A stretch of DNA of 64,000 nucleotides from Halorubrum sp. PV6 (GTDB lineage: Archaea > Halobacteriota > Halobacteria > Halobacteriales > Haloferacaceae): positions 1,798,001 through 1,862,000 of the forward strand of contig NZ_CP030064.1 of the NCBI RefSeq assembly GCF_003990725.2, read 5' to 3'. The position numbers and the translations under genes are program-made. Numbering within the stretch: position 1 is the stretch's first letter; each line of letters opens with the position of its first letter. Below, piece after piece: positions 20,594-28,698 of this stretch. Below the pieces are notes generated by a model that was not told where the DNA came from, ran no database searches, and was given only the letters and a program-made list of their open reading frames with translations.

Positions 20594-20661
20594 GGCCGTT
20601 TCGGCGCGTCGCCGTCGCGGCCCTGCGTAACTTTATCTGGTAACGTCGCTCACCTTGGGTG

Positions 20662-22113
20662 ATGAACCGATCTCGACGAGCGTCACACGCGCTCGTCGTC
20701 GTCGCCCTCGCCGTCGTGATCGTCCTCGCCGGCTGTACGGGGGCGCCGGTCAGCGACCCGACCGCGACCGACGGCTCGTCCGAGGCGCCGTTGGACGACG
20801 CGGCGGAACCGGCGACGGCGAACGGCACGCTCGAAGTCCACTATATAAATGTCGGGCAGTCGGTCAGCACGCTCGTCGTGGGGTCGGGCGGCGAGACGCT
20901 GCTCGTCGACACCGGCCACTACAACGACGACGGCGAACACGTCCTCGCGTACCTCCGACGGCACGGGATAGAGCGGATCGACCACCTCGTCACCTCGCAC
21001 AACGACGCGGACCACATCGGCGGGAACGGGGCCGTCATCGACTACTACGAGACGGAGGCCGACGGGATCGGTGCGATCTACGATCCGGGGATCGCGGCGA
21101 GTACGCGCACCTACGGCGAGTACTTAGACGCCGTTGAGGAACACGACGTGACGCTGTACGAGACGCGGGCGGGCGATACGATCCCCTTCGGCGAGACCAC
21201 CGTCGACGTGCTCGGGCCGCCGGAGCCGTACCTCGAAGGCGGAGACCGAAACGAGAACAGCATCGTTCTCAAACTCACGCACGGCGACACGAGTCTCGTG
21301 CTGTCCGGCGACGCCGAAGACGACCAGGAGGCGTATCTCGTCGACGAGTACGGCGACCGGCTGCGGTCGACGGTGCTGAAGGCGGGCCACCACGGGTCGA
21401 GCAGTTCCTCGGGCGGCGCGTTCATCGACGCCGTGAACCCGCGGGTCGCGGTCGTCTCCAGCGCGTACGACTCACAGTACGGCCATCCCCACGAGGAGGT
21501 CCTCCGGCGCTTCGCCGACCGATCTATCCCGACGTACTGGACGGCGACGCACGGCGACATCGTCTTCGTCAGCGACGGCGCGACCGTCTCCGTGCGCACG
21601 CAGCGCGACGCTCCGACGGCCCCGCTGGCGCTCCGCGACGGCGACCCGGTCGAACCCGGAACGAGCGACGGAGTCGCGGAACGGGTCCAGATAACCGGCG
21701 GCGAGACCGTCGCCGTCGCCGACGGCGGCAGCGAGACGCCCGAGGGCGGTGCCGACGAGGGGTCGACCGCGGAATCTGACGGGGGGCTCGAACTCGCGAG
21801 GGTGAACGCCGACGCCGCGGGCGACGACGGAGCGAACCTCAACGACGAGTACGTCGTCTTCGAGAACGCGGGGAGCGACGCCCTCGATCTGTCCGGGTGG
21901 ACCGTGGCCGACGAGGCCGACAAACGCTACGTGATCCCGGACGGCGTAACGCTCGCGCCGGGCGAGACGCTGACGCTGTACACGGGAAGCGGCGCCGACA
22001 CCGACCGCGAACTCTACTGGGGCGCCGGCTCGCCGGTCTGGAACAACGCCGGCGACACCGTGTTCGTCACGACCGAGACCGGCGAGCGAGTCCTCGCGGA
22101 GTCGTACGAATGA
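20662..22113 (+). CDS. Secreted ComEC-like metallo-beta-lactamase lipoprotein with lamin-tail domain
   Basis: A 483-residue extracytoplasmic protein. The N-terminus has a signal peptide and lipobox VLAGC with lipidation at C25. Residues about 55-310 form an MBL-fold hydrolase like the C-terminal domain of ComEC (NVGQSVSTLVVGSGGETLLV, TSHNDADHIGG, LKAGHHGSSSSSGG). Residues about 375-483 are a lamin-tail domain (ANLNDEYVVFENAG, LDLSGWTVADEADKRYVIPD). The combination suggests surface nucleic-acid or phosphodiester hydrolysis. Its stop overlaps the DUF3006 gene start (ATGA). Confidence 0.85.
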   Translation: MNRSRRASHALVVVALAVVIVLAGCTGAPVSDPTATDGSSEAPLDDAAEPATANGTLEVHYINVGQSVSTLVVGSGGETLLVDTGHYNDDGEHVLAYLRRHGIERIDHLVTSHNDADHIGGNGAVIDYYETEADGIGAIYDPGIAASTRTYGEYLDAVEEHDVTLYETRAGDTIPFGETTVDVLGPPEPYLEGGDRNENSIVLKLTHGDTSLVLSGDAEDDQEAYLVDEYGDRLRSTVLKAGHHGSSSSSGGAFIDAVNPRVAVVSSAYDSQYGHPHEEVLRRFADRSIPTYWTATHGDIVFVSDGATVSVRTQRDAPTAPLALRDGDPVEPGTSDGVAERVQITGGETVAVADGGSETPEGGADEGSTAESDGGLELARVNADAAGDDGANLNDEYVVFENAGSDALDLSGWTVADEADKRYVIPDGVTLAPGETLTLYTGSGADTDRELYWGAGSPVWNNAGDTVFVTTETGERVLAESYE

Positions 22114-22409: not shown

Positions 22410-22529
22410 GGCGGGTCGGACGAGGAGGTGGAGACGGCGTCAGTCGACGGCGAGCGAACGCGCTCGGACCGGCCGGACGGGGGAGCGGACCCGTTATTAT
22501 TATGTGGATTACCCGCATCAAGAACATCT

Positions 22530-24011
22530 ATGACTCCCGATAGTTTGCCGAAGACGCCGTCCGGGACGCCCGGCTTCGATGGCGTCTTGGCCGGCGGCGT
22601 CCCAGCGGGGCAGACGACGGTCGTGTTCGGCGGACCGGGGTCCGGGAAGACGATAGTCGCCTTGCAGTTCCTGGCCGCCGGCGACTCCGGGCTCTACGTC
22701 GGGTTCGAAGAGGCGGAAGACCAGCTCCGGCGAAACGCCGAGGCGCTGGGAATCGATCTCTCGGACGTTTCGGTGCTGGATTTAAGCCCCGCGGGCGAGC
22801 AGTTCTTCGACGACGACTCCTACACCGTCTTCCCGACCGAGGAGGTCGACGGCGAAGAGCTGTTAGGCCAGATCGGGTCGCGGCTCCGGGAGAGCGACGC
22901 CGACCGCCTCGTGATCGACCCGCTCTCGGAACTGCGGGCGCTGCTCCCCGACGACTTCCAGTTTCGGCGCAAGGTCGCGGCGCTTTTCAGCGCGCTCACG
23001 GAGCGGAACATCACGACGCTCTGTACCGCCCAACTGGGCGACCGACCGGCCGAGGACGACCTCCAGTTCCTCGCGAACACGGTCGTCGAACTCCGGAAGA
23101 CCACGGAGCGCCGGACCCTCGAAGTGACGAAGTACCGCGGGTCGGACTTCGCGAGCGGCTATCACACCCTGCGGATCCACGCCGGACGAGGGGCGGTCGT
23201 CTATCCGAAACTCGTCCCCGGCGACTACCACGAGGACTACGAGCGCACGCAGTTGCCCTCCGACGTCCCGAACCTCGACGACCTGCTCTCCGGCGGCATC
23301 CCCCGCGGCTCGGTGACGGTCATCTCGGGCCCCTCCGGCGTCGGCAAGACGACGACCGGCTCGCTGTTCCTGCAGGCCGCCGCGAAGCGGGGCGAGCGGG
23401 CCATCGGCTACCTCTTCGAGGAACTGCGCGCGGATTACCTCTATCGGAGCGAGCAGTTGGGGCTGGACGTGCGATCGCTCGTCGACGAAGGTACCCTCGA
23501 AATCGAGGAGGTGGAGGCGTTGAAACGGAGCCCCGACGAGTTCGCCACGCACGTCAGGGAGGCGGTCGAAGAGCGCGACATCGAGTTCGTGATGTTAGAC
23601 GGCGTTACGGGGTACCGACAGGGGCTCCGCGGCGACGACTCCGACGGGGCGTTGACCCGCGAACTCCACGCGCTCTGTCGATACCTGAAGCGCGTGGGCG
23701 TGACGGTGGTCCTCCTCGAAGAGGTGTCGTACGTGACCGGGGAGTTCTCGCCGACGGAACACCACATCAGCTACCTCGCGGACAACATCGTCTTCCTCCG
23801 GTACCTCGAAGTGGACGGCCGGCTGGAGAAGGCCATCGGCGTGTTGAAGATGCGGTACGGCGACTTCGACAACTCGCTGCGCGAACTGCGGATATCCAGC
23901 GACGGCCTCACGATCGGCGGCCCGCTCTCGGAGTACCACGGCCTGCTCACTGGGATGGCTAACCCGGCCAGTCGGTCGGATGACGACGACCCAGGCGACG
24001 CCGAGAGATGA
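22530..24011 (+). CDS. KaiC-family tandem RecA-like ATPase
   Basis: A 493-residue protein with two KaiC/RadA-type domains. Domain 1 starts TPSGTPGFDGVLAGGVPAG and has Walker A GGPGSGKT at 34-41 and Walker B RLVIDPLSEL. Domain 2 begins VPNLDDLLSGGIPRGSVTV with Walker A SGPSGVGKT at 266-274 and Walker B FVMLDGVTGY. It is the double-domain layout of circadian KaiC, but archaeal members mostly act as signalling ATPases rather than proven clocks. The start follows an A/T-rich promoter by about 30 nt. The last four bases overlap the sensor kinase gene. Confidence 0.92.
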   Translation: MTPDSLPKTPSGTPGFDGVLAGGVPAGQTTVVFGGPGSGKTIVALQFLAAGDSGLYVGFEEAEDQLRRNAEALGIDLSDVSVLDLSPAGEQFFDDDSYTVFPTEEVDGEELLGQIGSRLRESDADRLVIDPLSELRALLPDDFQFRRKVAALFSALTERNITTLCTAQLGDRPAEDDLQFLANTVVELRKTTERRTLEVTKYRGSDFASGYHTLRIHAGRGAVVYPKLVPGDYHEDYERTQLPSDVPNLDDLLSGGIPRGSVTVISGPSGVGKTTTGSLFLQAAAKRGERAIGYLFEELRADYLYRSEQLGLDVRSLVDEGTLEIEEVEALKRSPDEFATHVREAVEERDIEFVMLDGVTGYRQGLRGDDSDGALTRELHALCRYLKRVGVTVVLLEEVSYVTGEFSPTEHHISYLADNIVFLRYLEVDGRLEKAIGVLKMRYGDFDNSLRELRISSDGLTIGGPLSEYHGLLTGMANPASRSDDDDPGDAER

Positions 24012-26194
24012 CGCTGGCTCGTGAGCGCGGTCCGGTTCACCTCGCGTTCGACATCGAGCGCGATCAGAACCGGGAGCTACTCACGGACCTGTTCGCGGCG
24101 TTCGAAATCGTCGAGTTCTCCGGGGCGGTTCCCGACGGAACCGACCTCTGTATCGTCGACGAGCGGGCCTTCCAGCGATCGCCGGAGCGGTTCGTCACGT
24201 GGAAGGCCGAGGAGGGGTCGCTGTTCGCTCCGGTGGCGGTGCTCTCGGAGCCGACGACCGCCGACCCGTGGCAGTCGTTCGACGAGTCGCTGTTGGCGGA
24301 GGCCGACGACATCCTGCAGATCCCCGTCTCGAAGGCCGAGTTCACCTCGCGCATCGAGAAGCTGCTCACGATGCGGGAGTTCACCAGCACGGTGAACGAG
24401 CAGAAACAGTTCTCGGAGTTGGTGTTTCAGTCCAGCCCGCTGGCGAAACTCGTCATCGAGCAGGACGGTACCATCGTCCAGGCGAACGAGCGCGCCGGAG
24501 AGCTGTTCGACGCCGACCCGGCGAGCATCGCCGGAACGGTCTACAACGAGAGCGACTGGGTCGCCGTCGACGACGAGGGCACCGAGATCCCTGCCGAGGA
24601 ACTGCCCTTCTCCCGCGTGTTCGAGACGAACAAACCGGTCTACGGACGCGAGTACACGATCAGGCACCCACAGGGCCCCGAGACCAACGTGTCGGTGAAC
24701 GTGGCGCCGGTTCGGGACGCGTCCGGGTCGATCGAGTACGTCGTCGCGACGCTCGAAGACATCACGGTTCGGCGGGCGCAGTCGGCGCGGCTCGAACGAC
24801 AGGTGGACCTGTTCCGGCAAGCACAGGAGATCGCCAGCCTCGGGGCGTGGGAGTACGACGTTCAGACCGGTGAGCAGTGGGTGAGCCGCGGCGTCGACCG
24901 AATTCTCGGAGTGCAGTCGGCGGCGGATATCCCGATCGAAGAACACTTCGAGTTATACCATCCCACGGACCGCCCGGCCATCCGCGAGGCGTTCGATCGG
25001 GCCGTAGAGGAGGGCGAGCCGTACGACCTCGAACTCAGGATCACTCGTCCCGACGGGGAAGAGCGCTGGGTTCGGACCCTCGGCGAGCCGCAAGGCGACG
25101 ACGGCGAGGTCCTCCGCGTTCGAGGCGCGATACAGGACATCACCAACCGGAAAAAGCGGGAAGTGGAGCGAAAGCGCATGTCGAACGCCGTCGAGAGCGC
25201 GCCCATCGGGATCACGCTCAGCGACCCCGACCGCGAGGACAACCCGCTGATATACGTGAACGAGGGGTTCCTCGACATGACGGGGTACACGCGGGAGGAA
25301 GCGCTCGGCCGCAACTGCCGGTTTCTCCAGGGAACGGACACGCTCGAAGAACACGTCCGCACCGTCCGCAAGGCGATAGACGCCGAGAAGACGGTGACGG
25401 TCACGCTCCGAAACTATCGGAAAGACGGATCGCTGTTCTGGAACCGTCTGACCGTCTCGCCCGTGTACGACGAGGACGGCTCGTTGACCAACTTCATCGG
25501 GTTCCAAGAGGACGTGAGCGACCTCATGCAACAGCAGCGACAGCTCGGGATCTTGGACCGCTACCTGCGTCACAACCTCCGAAACTCGTTGAACGTCGTA
25601 CAGGGACACGCCGAACTCGTCCAGCAGAAGGCCGACCCGCCGGTCGCGGAGTACGGGGCGATCATCGAACGGACCAGCACGACGCTCCTCCAGAACGTGG
25701 AGAAGGAACGCGCGATCACGGAACTGCTCCGGTCGCCGCTCAACCCGACGACGATCGAACTCATGCCGCTGCTCCGATCGATCGTCGACGAGTTCGAGGG
25801 GGCGTACCCGCACGCGACGGTGTCGCTCTCCGGCCCCGACGACATCTGGGTCGACGCGTTGCCCAAACTGGCGGAGGCGCTCGGGGAGCTCATCGAGAAC
25901 GCCATCCAACACACCGACAGCGAGTCGCCGACGATCGATGTCGCCGTCAAGGTCGGCGCCGACACCGCTCGCGTGATCGTTTCGGACAGCGGTCCCGGCA
26001 TCCCGGAGATGGAGGTGAACGTCCTCGTCAACCGAACCGCCGAAAACCCCACCTACCACGGACAGGGGTTCGGCCTGTGGATGGTGTACCTCATCGTGCA
26101 ACACTCCGGCGGGAACGTGACGTTCGAGGGCTCCGAGGAGGGGACGACCGTCACGGTCGAGTTGCCCCTCGCGGACGAGGACGCGACGGACTGA
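24008..26194 (+). CDS. Receiver-like/PAS/LOV sensor histidine kinase
   Basis: A 728-residue cytoplasmic kinase. Residues 1-120 resemble a receiver domain (LCIVDERAF, VAVLSEPTT). PAS domains follow at about 135-260 and 265-385, then a LOV domain at about 390-510 with the photoactive-cysteine motif GRNCRFLQG (C437), the flavin-contact segment NYRKDGSLFWN and NFIGFQEDVS. The kinase core has H522 in RHNLRNSLNVVQGH, an N box ELIENAIQH and G boxes. No membrane helix is visible. Translational coupling to the KaiC-like gene implies the two work together in light or redox signalling. Confidence 0.9.
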   Translation: MTLARERGPVHLAFDIERDQNRELLTDLFAAFEIVEFSGAVPDGTDLCIVDERAFQRSPERFVTWKAEEGSLFAPVAVLSEPTTADPWQSFDESLLAEADDILQIPVSKAEFTSRIEKLLTMREFTSTVNEQKQFSELVFQSSPLAKLVIEQDGTIVQANERAGELFDADPASIAGTVYNESDWVAVDDEGTEIPAEELPFSRVFETNKPVYGREYTIRHPQGPETNVSVNVAPVRDASGSIEYVVATLEDITVRRAQSARLERQVDLFRQAQEIASLGAWEYDVQTGEQWVSRGVDRILGVQSAADIPIEEHFELYHPTDRPAIREAFDRAVEEGEPYDLELRITRPDGEERWVRTLGEPQGDDGEVLRVRGAIQDITNRKKREVERKRMSNAVESAPIGITLSDPDREDNPLIYVNEGFLDMTGYTREEALGRNCRFLQGTDTLEEHVRTVRKAIDAEKTVTVTLRNYRKDGSLFWNRLTVSPVYDEDGSLTNFIGFQEDVSDLMQQQRQLGILDRYLRHNLRNSLNVVQGHAELVQQKADPPVAEYGAIIERTSTTLLQNVEKERAITELLRSPLNPTTIELMPLLRSIVDEFEGAYPHATVSLSGPDDIWVDALPKLAEALGELIENAIQHTDSESPTIDVAVKVGADTARVIVSDSGPGIPEMEVNVLVNRTAENPTYHGQGFGLWMVYLIVQHSGGNVTFEGSEEGTTVTVELPLADEDATD

Positions 26195-26351
26195 CCCGAC
26201 TCACACCGAAACCGCTGCGTCGTCGCAGGCGGTCACTTTTAAACGCTTACAAGTCCGGCACGGAGGCGTCCGTGACCGCGCCGGTCCGGTCACCGTGGCA
26301 CGGTCGTCGTTTTAAAACACCTCCGCGAAGATGGCTCCCCGCGACCGGGAA

Positions 26352-27107
26352 TCAGTCGGACCGCTCCGAGGAGCGGGACGCGGACGCTGCGCCGCCGTCG
26401 GTCGCTGCCTGCGTCTGTGGGGTCACCTGAACCGTCATCTCCGTCGTCGTTTCGAACCCCGCCACCTGGTCGTTGAGGTCTCCGGCCAACGCGGAGAGCT
26501 CTTGAATCGTCTCGGCGGTCTCCGCGAGCGACGAGGTCTGCTCTTCGGTCGCCGCCGAGACGTTGCTCGCCTCCGCGGCGGTCTGTTCGCTCACGCTCGC
26601 CACTTCGTCCACCACCGAGACGACCTCCTCCGTCGAGGCGGCCTGGTCGTCGGTCGCGTCGCTGATCTCTCGGATCCCGCTTTCGGCCTCCTGGACCGCG
26701 TCCGCGATCTCGTCGAACATCTCGATCGCGCTCTCGATCGTCTCCGACCCGCGCTCGACGCGCTCGCTCATCTGCTCCATCCCCGCGACGGTCTCCGTCG
26801 TGCTTGCTTGTGCGTTCTCGATGCGCGCTTCGACGGCGGCCGTCGCCTCCGACGCCTCCTCCGCGAGCGACTTCACCTCGGAGGCGACGACGCCGAACCC
26901 CTCCCCGGCCTCGCCGGCACGCGCCGCCTCGATCGACGCGTTGAGCGCCAAAATGTTCGTCTTCTCCGCGATCCCGGAGATCATCTCGACGATCTCGCCG
27001 ATCTCATTCATGTCCGCTTCGAGCGCCGCGACCTGTCCGGCCGCCTCGTTCGCCTGCGCTTCGATCGACTCGATCTCGTCGGTCGCAAGCGACGCCGCGT
27101 GGCTCAC
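26352..27107 (-). CDS. Methyl-accepting chemotaxis signalling domain, no sensor part
   Basis: A 251-residue protein made almost only of the cytoplasmic coiled-coil of a transducer. The hairpin tip [20 protein letters not shown] is intact and the methylation-helix type repeats surround it. There is no signal peptide, membrane helix, HAMP or PAS domain, and an in-frame TAA lies three codons before the GTG start. It is either a soluble transducer or the surviving 3' part of a longer one. The 44-base gap to the divergent HalOD1 gene is short for two promoters. Confidence 0.8.
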
Positions 27108-27151
27108 CGTCTGGTTTTTATTATCGTCCGTCGTATGTGTTTACCAGTAGG

Positions 27152-27394
27152 ATGTACGACGATCTCACGACGAGTATCATTGCAGCGATTTCTGAGAGGA
27201 AGGACGTCGATCCGAGCGATCTCGAAGTCATTCTCGCCGAACACGTCGATCTACACGCTATCGAACAGCTCGCGAAACACGAGACCAGCACGTGGCAACT
27301 CGAATTCGAACTCCCCGAACATACGGTCTCTGTCACGTCCGACGGCGGGGTTCTCGTCGACGGTCAGGAAACACAGACGCAGCCTACTGATTGA
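27152..27394 (+). CDS. HalOD1-domain protein
   Basis: An 80-residue protein matching the haloarchaeal output domain HalOD1: LTTSIIAAISERKDVDPSDL, then AIEQLA and the beta pair QLEFELPEHTVSVTSDGGVLVD. The domain is found alone or fused to regulators; function unknown. A TATA element (TTTTTATTA, about 27116-27124) lies 28 nt before the ATG, which supports this start rather than one five codons upstream. Its DNA is visibly less GC-rich than that of its neighbours. Confidence 0.8.
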   Translation: MYDDLTTSIIAAISERKDVDPSDLEVILAEHVDLHAIEQLAKHETSTWQLEFELPEHTVSVTSDGGVLVDGQETQTQPTD

Positions 27395-27513
27395 TCGGTA
27401 TCCACAATTCAGCACCGTCGTTTCAGACGAACCGCTCGGTGTGACGAGTCCGCCGACGCCGAGTGCCGTCGCAACCACAACGAACTACACCGCCGTCCGG
27501 TGACTACTAGGTC

Positions 27514-28698
27514 ATGACTCGCCGTCTGTACGGGGGCCTGCTCGGGATGGTCTTCGTTGTCAACTTCGGGCGCGTCGTCTTTGCGCCGCTCGTCGAGCCG
27601 CTCCAAGCCGCGTTTGACGTCGGGCCGGCGACCGTCGGCGCCATCGTCTCGCTCGTCTGGTTCGGCACCGCGCTCCCCCGGCTCCCGCTGAGTTACGTGC
27701 TCACGCGCGTCTCCAGGCGACGGGTCGTCGTCGCGTCCGGCGTGATGCTCACCGCGGCGGCCGCCCTCACCGCGTCGTCGCCCGACATCCGGACGTTTCG
27801 GATCGGGGTCCTCGCCGTCGGCGTCGCCTCCGGCACGTACTTCGTCTCCGCGGTGCCGCTCATCGGGGAGCTGTACCCCGACCGGGTCGGCAAGCGCATC
27901 GGGATTCACGGGACTGCGGCGCAACTCGCGGCCGTGGCCGCCCCGACGGTCGTCGTGTCGGTCGTCGCCGTCACCACCTGGCGGGCCGTGTTCTGGCTGC
28001 TCGCGGCCGCGGGCCTCCTGACCACCCTCGTCTTCGCCGTCGGCCTCCGAGGGACCGAACGATCCCCGGAGGCGCCGCCGGCGCGGAACTTCCGCGGCGT
28101 GCTCGGCAACTGGCGGGTCGTTCTCACGGGGATGCTGTTTATCAGTGCCGCCGGGTTCGTCTGGCAGGGGCTGTTCAACTTCTACGTCTCCGTGATGCTC
28201 GGTCGGGGACTCGATCCGGGGACCGCGAACGCGCTCCTGACGATCACGTTCGCGGCGGGGATACCGGCGTTCTGGGCCAGCGGCGCGCTCGTCGACCGGC
28301 TGCCGACGATCCCGTACATCCTCGGACTCGTCGGCGCGTTCACCGCCGGAGTGTTCGGCGTGACCCTGTTCAGCGGCGCGGTCGCGCTCGGCGCGGTGTC
28401 GGTCGTCCTCGGTTACACCATCCACGGCCTGTTCCCCGCGCTCGACACCTACGTCCTCTCGGCGCTCCCGGCCGACACGCGCGCCGGTACGTTCGCCGCG
28501 TTCAGCGGGCTCTCGATCGCCCTCGAAGCCTCCGGAAGCGGCGTCGTCGGCGCGCTCGTCGAGGCCGGCTACCCGTTCACCACGGTGTTCCGCGGGTTCG
28601 CGGGCGGGCTCGTCGTCGTCCTCGTCGTCGCCGCGGGGCTCTACCGACGCGACCGACTCCCCGCGGCCGACCGCGTCACCGGCGCCACTGAGTCGTGA
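27514..28698 (+). CDS. MFS transporter
   Basis: A 394-residue Major Facilitator Superfamily carrier with about twelve hydrophobic helices. The loop between helices 2 and 3 carries the weak MFS motif LSYVLTRVSRRRVVVASG. The central loop GLRGTERSPEAPPARNFRG separates the two halves. It resembles nitrate/cyanate-type and sugar-phosphate-type carriers only in general layout, so no substrate is proposed. Monocistronic by position, downstream of the HalOD1 gene after a 119-base gap. Confidence 0.88.
   Translation: MTRRLYGGLLGMVFVVNFGRVVFAPLVEPLQAAFDVGPATVGAIVSLVWFGTALPRLPLSYVLTRVSRRRVVVASGVMLTAAAALTASSPDIRTFRIGVLAVGVASGTYFVSAVPLIGELYPDRVGKRIGIHGTAAQLAAVAAPTVVVSVVAVTTWRAVFWLLAAAGLLTTLVFAVGLRGTERSPEAPPARNFRGVLGNWRVVLTGMLFISAAGFVWQGLFNFYVSVMLGRGLDPGTANALLTITFAAGIPAFWASGALVDRLPTIPYILGLVGAFTAGVFGVTLFSGAVALGAVSVVLGYTIHGLFPALDTYVLSALPADTRAGTFAAFSGLSIALEASGSGVVGALVEAGYPFTTVFRGFAGGLVVVLVVAAGLYRRDRLPAADRVTGATES

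Follow-up and report, generated by a model that had tools for sequence, protein, structure and literature searches.

A haloarchaeal KaiC-type ATPase paired with a predicted LOV histidine kinase, and a pseudo-receiver domain linked to KaiC in archaea and bacteria

A double-domain KaiC ATPase and a histidine kinase with a predicted photoactive LOV domain are encoded by overlapping genes in a haloarchaeal genome of 3.04 Mb (Halorubrum group), within a window of 64,000 nucleotides (the whole stretch of DNA that was analysed). The kinase begins with a pseudo-receiver (PsR) that, judged from sequence comparison, is almost exclusive to the neighbourhood of KaiC genes and looks like the domain coupling effectors to KaiC; this exclusivity, together with the swapping of effectors behind PsR, is the stronger general result. 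We think it rather probable that the pair forms a two-gene module in which a KaiC ATPase ring and a docking kinase would integrate light with the state of KaiC. The KaiC-kinase operon family has been known in bacteria since 2011, and the new parts are its LOV-bearing haloarchaeal version and the near-exclusive association of PsR with KaiC.

Results

Organization of the gene pair and features of the KaiC protein

The original prediction described an ATGA-overlapping gene pair whose first member is a double-domain KaiC homologue, and both the overlap and two PF06745 stretches in the KaiC ORF (Pfam, 227.7 bits) were recovered. The features of the pair, with the evidence for each, are:

22494..22503, + strand: TATA-like element TTATTATTAT, about 27-36 nt 5' of the KaiC ATG (read from sequence)
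22530..24011, + strand: KaiC-family ATPase, double-domain, 493 aa (ORF, PF06745, relatives)
22557..23210, + strand: KaiC domain CI, residues 10-227 (Walker A GGPGSGKT at residue 34; EE at 60-61)
23256..23915, + strand: KaiC domain CII, residues about 243-462 (Walker A GPSGVGKT at 267; EE at 297-298)
24008..26194, + strand: LOV histidine kinase, 728 aa (ORF; start codon overlaps the KaiC stop, ATGA)
24038..24433, + strand: PsR, residues 11-104 plus a long helix to 142 (profile, model, alignment)
24443..24760, + strand: PAS domain 1, residues about 146-251 (Pfam and AlphaFold model)
24839..25138, + strand: PAS domain 2 (PAS_3 type), residues about 278-377 (Pfam and AlphaFold model)
25178..25543, + strand: LOV domain, residues about 391-512 (all canonical flavin-contact motifs present)
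25316..25318, + strand: TGC codon of the predicted adduct-forming Cys437 (sequence; genome-wide motif scan)
25517..25732, + strand: DHp dimerisation helices, residues about 504-575 (predicted phospho-acceptor His522 at 25571-25573)
25748..26170, + strand: HATPase_c catalytic ATPase domain, residues about 581-721 (Pfam, model, motifs)

The ATGA overlap points to co-transcription of the two genes, and the position of TTATTATTAT suggests a promoter element with a leaderless transcript starting near 22530. The pairing is far beyond chance, as it recurs in more than 100 genomes.

With two Walker A domains and their catalytic Glu pairs, the protein belongs to the double-domain KaiC superfamily (PF06745). 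Its Ser414-Tyr415 align with S431-T432 of cyanobacterial KaiC, so that Ser-Tyr stands in place of the S431/T432 phosphorylation pair; in an alignment of 142 KaiC relatives the S431 position was Ser in all 142 and the T432 position Tyr in 136. The scores fell far below the NCBIfam cut-offs for clock-KaiC equivalogs (TIGR02655, 157 vs 546; NF006799, 256 vs 408), and a whole-genome search gave no match to KaiB (PF07689). On these three grounds, identity as a clock KaiC was rejected.

Domains of the kinase

A full LOV signature with C437, other PAS domains and a kinase core had been claimed for the second gene, and all of them were found. The stretch GRNCRFLQG, beginning at residue 434 and containing Cys437, agrees with the GxNCRFLQ pattern of LOV photoreceptors and is followed by NYRKDG at 469, FWN at 477 and GFQEDV at 498. 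The flavin contacts N469, N479 and Q500 are all present and invariant or nearly so among relatives, and the closest solved structures to residues 391-513 are LOV kinases and YtvA; the domain is thus predicted to bind flavin and to be photoactive. Two further PAS domains precede it. In the kinase core, HATPase_c was matched at E 9e-21 (Pfam) with N and G boxes present. The HisKA match lay below the Pfam cut-off (21.3 vs 26.9 bits, E 2.7e-4), but two long helices are predicted there and the putative phospho-acceptor His522, in RHNLRN, is invariant in 16 relatives. An AlphaFold model built with 16 relatives placed the LOV domain at about residues 391-502; it had a mean pLDDT of 85 and a pTM of 0.44, which leaves the domain arrangement uncertain.

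The N-terminal domain is a pseudo-receiver

The N-terminal domain of the kinase, taken alone, matched no Pfam family, PF00072 included. A profile of its relatives nevertheless matched receivers, the best being the second receiver of PleD (E 1e-16), and the model showed a receiver fold (pLDDT 91.7) with Foldseek matches mostly to receivers, in agreement with the receiver-like N-terminus of the original prediction. The alignment shows no conservation of the acidic DD pair and catalytic Lys that mark phosphorylatable receivers, and the phospho-Asp position (Asp51) alone is mostly kept. Because a receiver fold is combined with degenerate DD and Lys columns, we regard the domain as a pseudo-receiver. 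Its likeness to the pseudo-receiver of CikA had been called only architectural: the receiver-like domain is real, but it belongs to a distinct PsR family that occurs almost only beside double-domain KaiC genes. The parallel with a clock kinase is not supported in a genome without KaiB, with Ser-Tyr at the 431/432 site of KaiC and with PsR at the N-terminus; the PsR of CikA is C-terminal.

PsR is tied to KaiC across genomes

In a first set, 50 of 51 KaiC-linked kinases carried PsR. A set of 157 double-KaiC genes was then gathered by KaiC similarity from haloarchaea, cyanobacteria, Chloroflexota and others, and 146 of them had a PsR neighbour within 600 bp (117 co-directional, 29 divergent). The linkage was reproduced in 48 further haloarchaeal genomes, where all 49 listed KaiC genes had PsR within 3 kb.

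Searches with the PsR profile gave the same picture, with some circularity in the resulting exclusivity since proteins adjoining KaiC had served to build the profile. In the first 40 haloarchaeal genomes, where HATPase_c was matched 1417 times, there were 63 PsR matches: 58 beside intact KaiC, 2 beside KaiC fragments and 3 elsewhere. The 48 further genomes held 82, with 61 by listed KaiC genes, 12 by further intact KaiC, 3 by KaiC fragments and 4 at 3 loci without KaiC, the 2 remaining weak matches being left out of the neighbour check. Across 15 bacterial genomes, 16 matches scored above 88 bits and the next below 35 bits (34), leaving a clear gap from ordinary receivers. A few PsR kinases (at loci L202, L204, L253, L262 and L267) have no adjoining KaiC. 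One of the 3 KaiC-less matches in the 40 genomes is weak (34 bits).

The domains that follow PsR are diverse, comprising histidine kinases, GAF-BAT-HTH_10 regulators, GGDEF, HD or PAS-only proteins. Since KaiC and PsR persist whatever effector is attached, it is PsR, and not the kinase, that constantly accompanies KaiC. Pairwise distances among KaiC proteins correlated more closely with those of PsR (r 0.78) than with those of the kinase core (0.62, n=112); in the LOV subset the two correlations were nearly equal (0.87 for KaiC-PsR and 0.85 for KaiC-HK). Gene linkage and distance correlation together suggest that PsR may contact KaiC physically.

LOV kinases are enriched beside KaiC

Sites encoding the LOV Cys motif were located with an exact DNA pattern, which matched 106 times in 58 haloarchaeal genomes with 2031 HATPase_c matches; its reversed control matched 3 times. 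Of the 106 sites, 28 were no more than 5 kb away from one of the 71 double-KaiC genes, where about 0.4 would be expected by position, an enrichment of about 60-fold. The odds ratio was 15.7, and when each genus was represented by a single genome the median p was 1e-8. The enrichment was replicated in the 48 further genomes, in which 18 of 109 LOV-Cys sites were by KaiC (14 by listed genes, 4 by other intact KaiC). The LOV-KaiC pairing occurs in two gene arrangements, co-directional and divergent.

The LOV Cys motif was present in 64 partner kinases. About half of the partners lack LOV, and the KaiC-PsR module can therefore do without light. Mapped onto the KaiC tree, LOV requires 13 changes, of which at least 11 fall on well-supported branches, indicating that LOV was gained or lost repeatedly; the divergent arrangement needs 1 change. 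In several partners a LOV-like domain has Pro or His in place of the Cys, constituting natural Cys-less variants. Treatment of the 'GRNPRILQ' motifs as ordinary PAS was rejected, as their LOV-profile scores of 146-182 bits mark them as LOV-like domains without the Cys.

Origin of the pair in the window

The KaiC of the window shares 72-73% identity with the KaiCs of Halorientalis pallida and genome G190, compared with about 46% with those of other Halorubrum, most of which have a divergently oriented KaiC/LOV-kinase pair in its stead. Six other Halorubrum genomes possess the upstream HerA-MBL-DUF3006 genes but lack a pair of the window's type, and in three of these six chorismate mutase comes next, within about 0.5 kb. 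Because the KaiC is closer to Halorientalis and the pair is missing from the Halorubrum counterparts, the block at 22.5-28.7 kb was probably acquired horizontally.

Discussion

Brucella LOV-HK and the YtvA family have the closest solved LOV domains, yet the window's LOV domain misses their sub-family cut-offs, and we know of no KaiC partner or PsR in that family. CikA and SasA resemble the window's kinase as KaiC-tied histidine kinases, CikA also having a pseudo-receiver; to our knowledge neither contains a LOV domain. They differ in that the CikA PsR binds KaiB (PMC12632262) and SasA uses a KaiB-like domain (PMC3164672), whereas the window's genome has no KaiB match. A review of pseudo-receivers is aware of no functional work on any from archaea (PMC12632262).

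The nearest described system is bacterial. De Luca et al. reported in 2011 a KaiC(SY)-kinase operon whose kinase has a receiver-like N-domain, and proposed a family of KaiC-interacting kinases (PMC3164672). In Ramlibacter, Rta_04330/Rta_04340 comprise a double KaiC with an SY-type CII site followed by a kinase, without kaiB; the two are cotranscribed, and the kinase has a conserved receiver-resembling N-terminal domain, 'Nt_HK' (PMC3164672). The window's pair shares the SY-type KaiC, the histidine kinase with a receiver-like N-domain and the lack of kaiB, RtaNt and the window's PsR being likened by description only. It differs from the Ramlibacter family, for which no LOV is described and whose N-domain was compared with SasA/KaiB (PMC3164672); we rejected a SasA/KaiB-like N-domain for the PsR family, for which model and profile give a receiver fold. 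Archaeal LOV kinases are also known. Those of Lake Diamante carry LOV within multidomain kinases with REC/PAS, and one LOV domain is photoactive and photocycles in 3 M salt; no linkage of these kinases to KaiC is described in the available text of that report (PMC12202551). Our literature search, which did not extend to the 2017 KaiC-hub study, found no paper joining LOV to KaiC in archaea.

An archaeal system studied experimentally may be of the same kind. In Haloferax volcanii, cirC lies between orc2 and 'fixL', cir expression is rhythmic in light-dark cycles and light-dependent, and the light dependence is lost in cir knock-outs (PMC3941300). Among 15 Haloferax genomes searched the kinase was found in 8, and seven named species have KaiC followed by the LOV kinase; in locus L100, the one read along its whole length, an Orc/Cdc6-like ORF precedes the genes and the KaiC has a mass of 52.6-52.9 kDa. 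Gene order (orc-KaiC-kinase) and protein mass (CirC, 52.7 kDa; PMC3941300) thus match these loci to the H. volcanii cirC locus, and by analogy the kinase beside cirC would contain a LOV domain. The Haloferax KaiC clade differs from the window's KaiC, with about 48% identity.

In the mechanism that we propose, the N-terminal PsR would dock on the KaiC ring, and the LOV domain would sense blue light through a flavin-Cys437 adduct. Both would act on the dimerisation helices (DHp), so that the kinase could respond jointly to light and to the nucleotide or phosphorylation state of KaiC. The phosphoryl group on His522 would then be handed to a response regulator whose gene lies elsewhere. The contact, the photochemistry, the control of the kinase and the direction of signalling are each conjectural here. 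More tentatively still, and falling short of an even chance in our estimate, PsR may be a general plug from a non-clock KaiC ring to interchangeable effectors in archaea and bacteria, to which haloarchaea would have repeatedly added LOV, producing a light-gated KaiC switch and with it a dedicated photoreceptor of a KaiC system.

It had been proposed that the pair is an input module joined to a KaiC hub. On this reading the LOV kinase would change the ATPase activity or phosphorylation of KaiC, which would then distribute the signal. The enrichment of LOV beside KaiC agrees with this, as do the light-dependent cir expression and its loss in cir knock-outs (PMC3941300), and a hub role for archaeal KaiC has been proposed (cited in PMC5847659). 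Nevertheless, the same PsR is fused to HTH_10 regulators, GGDEF and HD outputs, a sign that KaiC acts on the PsR protein and not the other way round, and LOV is dispensable across the family. We therefore consider one-way input unlikely and hold it more likely that the kinase reads KaiC and light together.

Improbable to a greater degree is that the flavin domain serves mainly as a redox or oxygen sensor with no light switch, the chemistry of Cys437 being incidental. Such a role would suit the partners in which Pro or His replaces the Cys, and fixL is the annotation given to the H. volcanii neighbour (PMC3941300); against it, the window's LOV domain retains the Cys and every flavin contact, the Cys motif recurs in those 64 partner kinases, and a canonical haloarchaeal LOV domain does photocycle in 3 M salt (PMC12202551). 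We give very little credence to the idea that KaiC and the kinase are genomic neighbours only, brought together by common regulation or joint transfer and having no functional contact. Although the window's pair looks horizontally acquired as a block, the linkage extends across archaea and bacteria in both co-directional and divergent orders, and held in 49 of 49 cases in the second genome set. An archaeal circadian clock with a photoreceptor kinase, which the double-domain KaiC and the rhythmic cir expression of H. volcanii in light-dark cycles (PMC3941300) might recall, is the least credible reading: the genome search turned up no KaiB, 136 of the 142 relatives have Tyr where T432 would be, and the scores are far under the clock-KaiC cut-offs.

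Archaeal KaiC proteins, the proposed signalling hubs, have few known partners, and PsR offers a strongly linked partner domain with a photosensor attached. In Haloferax, which is genetically tractable, a cirC knock-out has been published and cir expression depends on light, so that a path from light to KaiC can be tested there, and the natural Cys, Pro and His variants of LOV beside the same KaiC family provide ready-made controls. In some myxobacteria, phytochrome genes lie in tandem with kaiC (PMC11832031).

Genomic context of the KaiC-LOV kinase pair

The HerA-MBL-DUF3006...chorismate mutase gene order is broken in the window by KaiC, the LOV kinase, an MCP-signal protein and an MFS transporter; in six other Halorubrum genomes it is unbroken or carries other filling. 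This block is likely a horizontal insertion.

20659-22113, protein that has a metallo-beta-lactamase fold and ends in a lamin-tail domain; the DUF3006 gene comes next
22530-28698, the interrupting block named above, which includes the KaiC-LOV kinase pair
26352-27107 (-), short MCP-signal protein with an MCP signalling domain (PF00015)

The MCP-signal gene is convergent to that of the LOV kinase, and its product, with hardly anything beyond PF00015, could be a soluble transducer or a remnant.

LOV domains and other partners at KaiC loci

KaiC-linked kinases at loci L047-L049, L054, L062, L063, L072, L112, L127 and L129 carry LOV-like domains with mostly Pro or His at the adduct Cys position (variants GRNPRILQ, GRNHRFLQ and GENHRFLQ). 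Two more LOV Cys motifs in the window's own genome (G000:C1:2492005 and G000:C2:151052) are not linked to double KaiC. The LOV/KaiC pairing extends beyond archaea to L179 (uncultured Aliifodinibius), possibly by transfer; there a bacterial KaiC precedes a 1116-aa pseudo-receiver (PsR)-LOV-kinase protein.

At L060, L066, L092 and L213, KaiC is followed by a PsR-GAF-BAT-HTH_10 transcription regulator (domain scan covering L066, L092 and L213), a KaiC module in which a DNA-binding output replaces the kinase. Bacterial loci often place a stand-alone receiver-like gene between KaiC and the PsR protein (L139, L142, L150, L151, L155, L160, L164 and L171).
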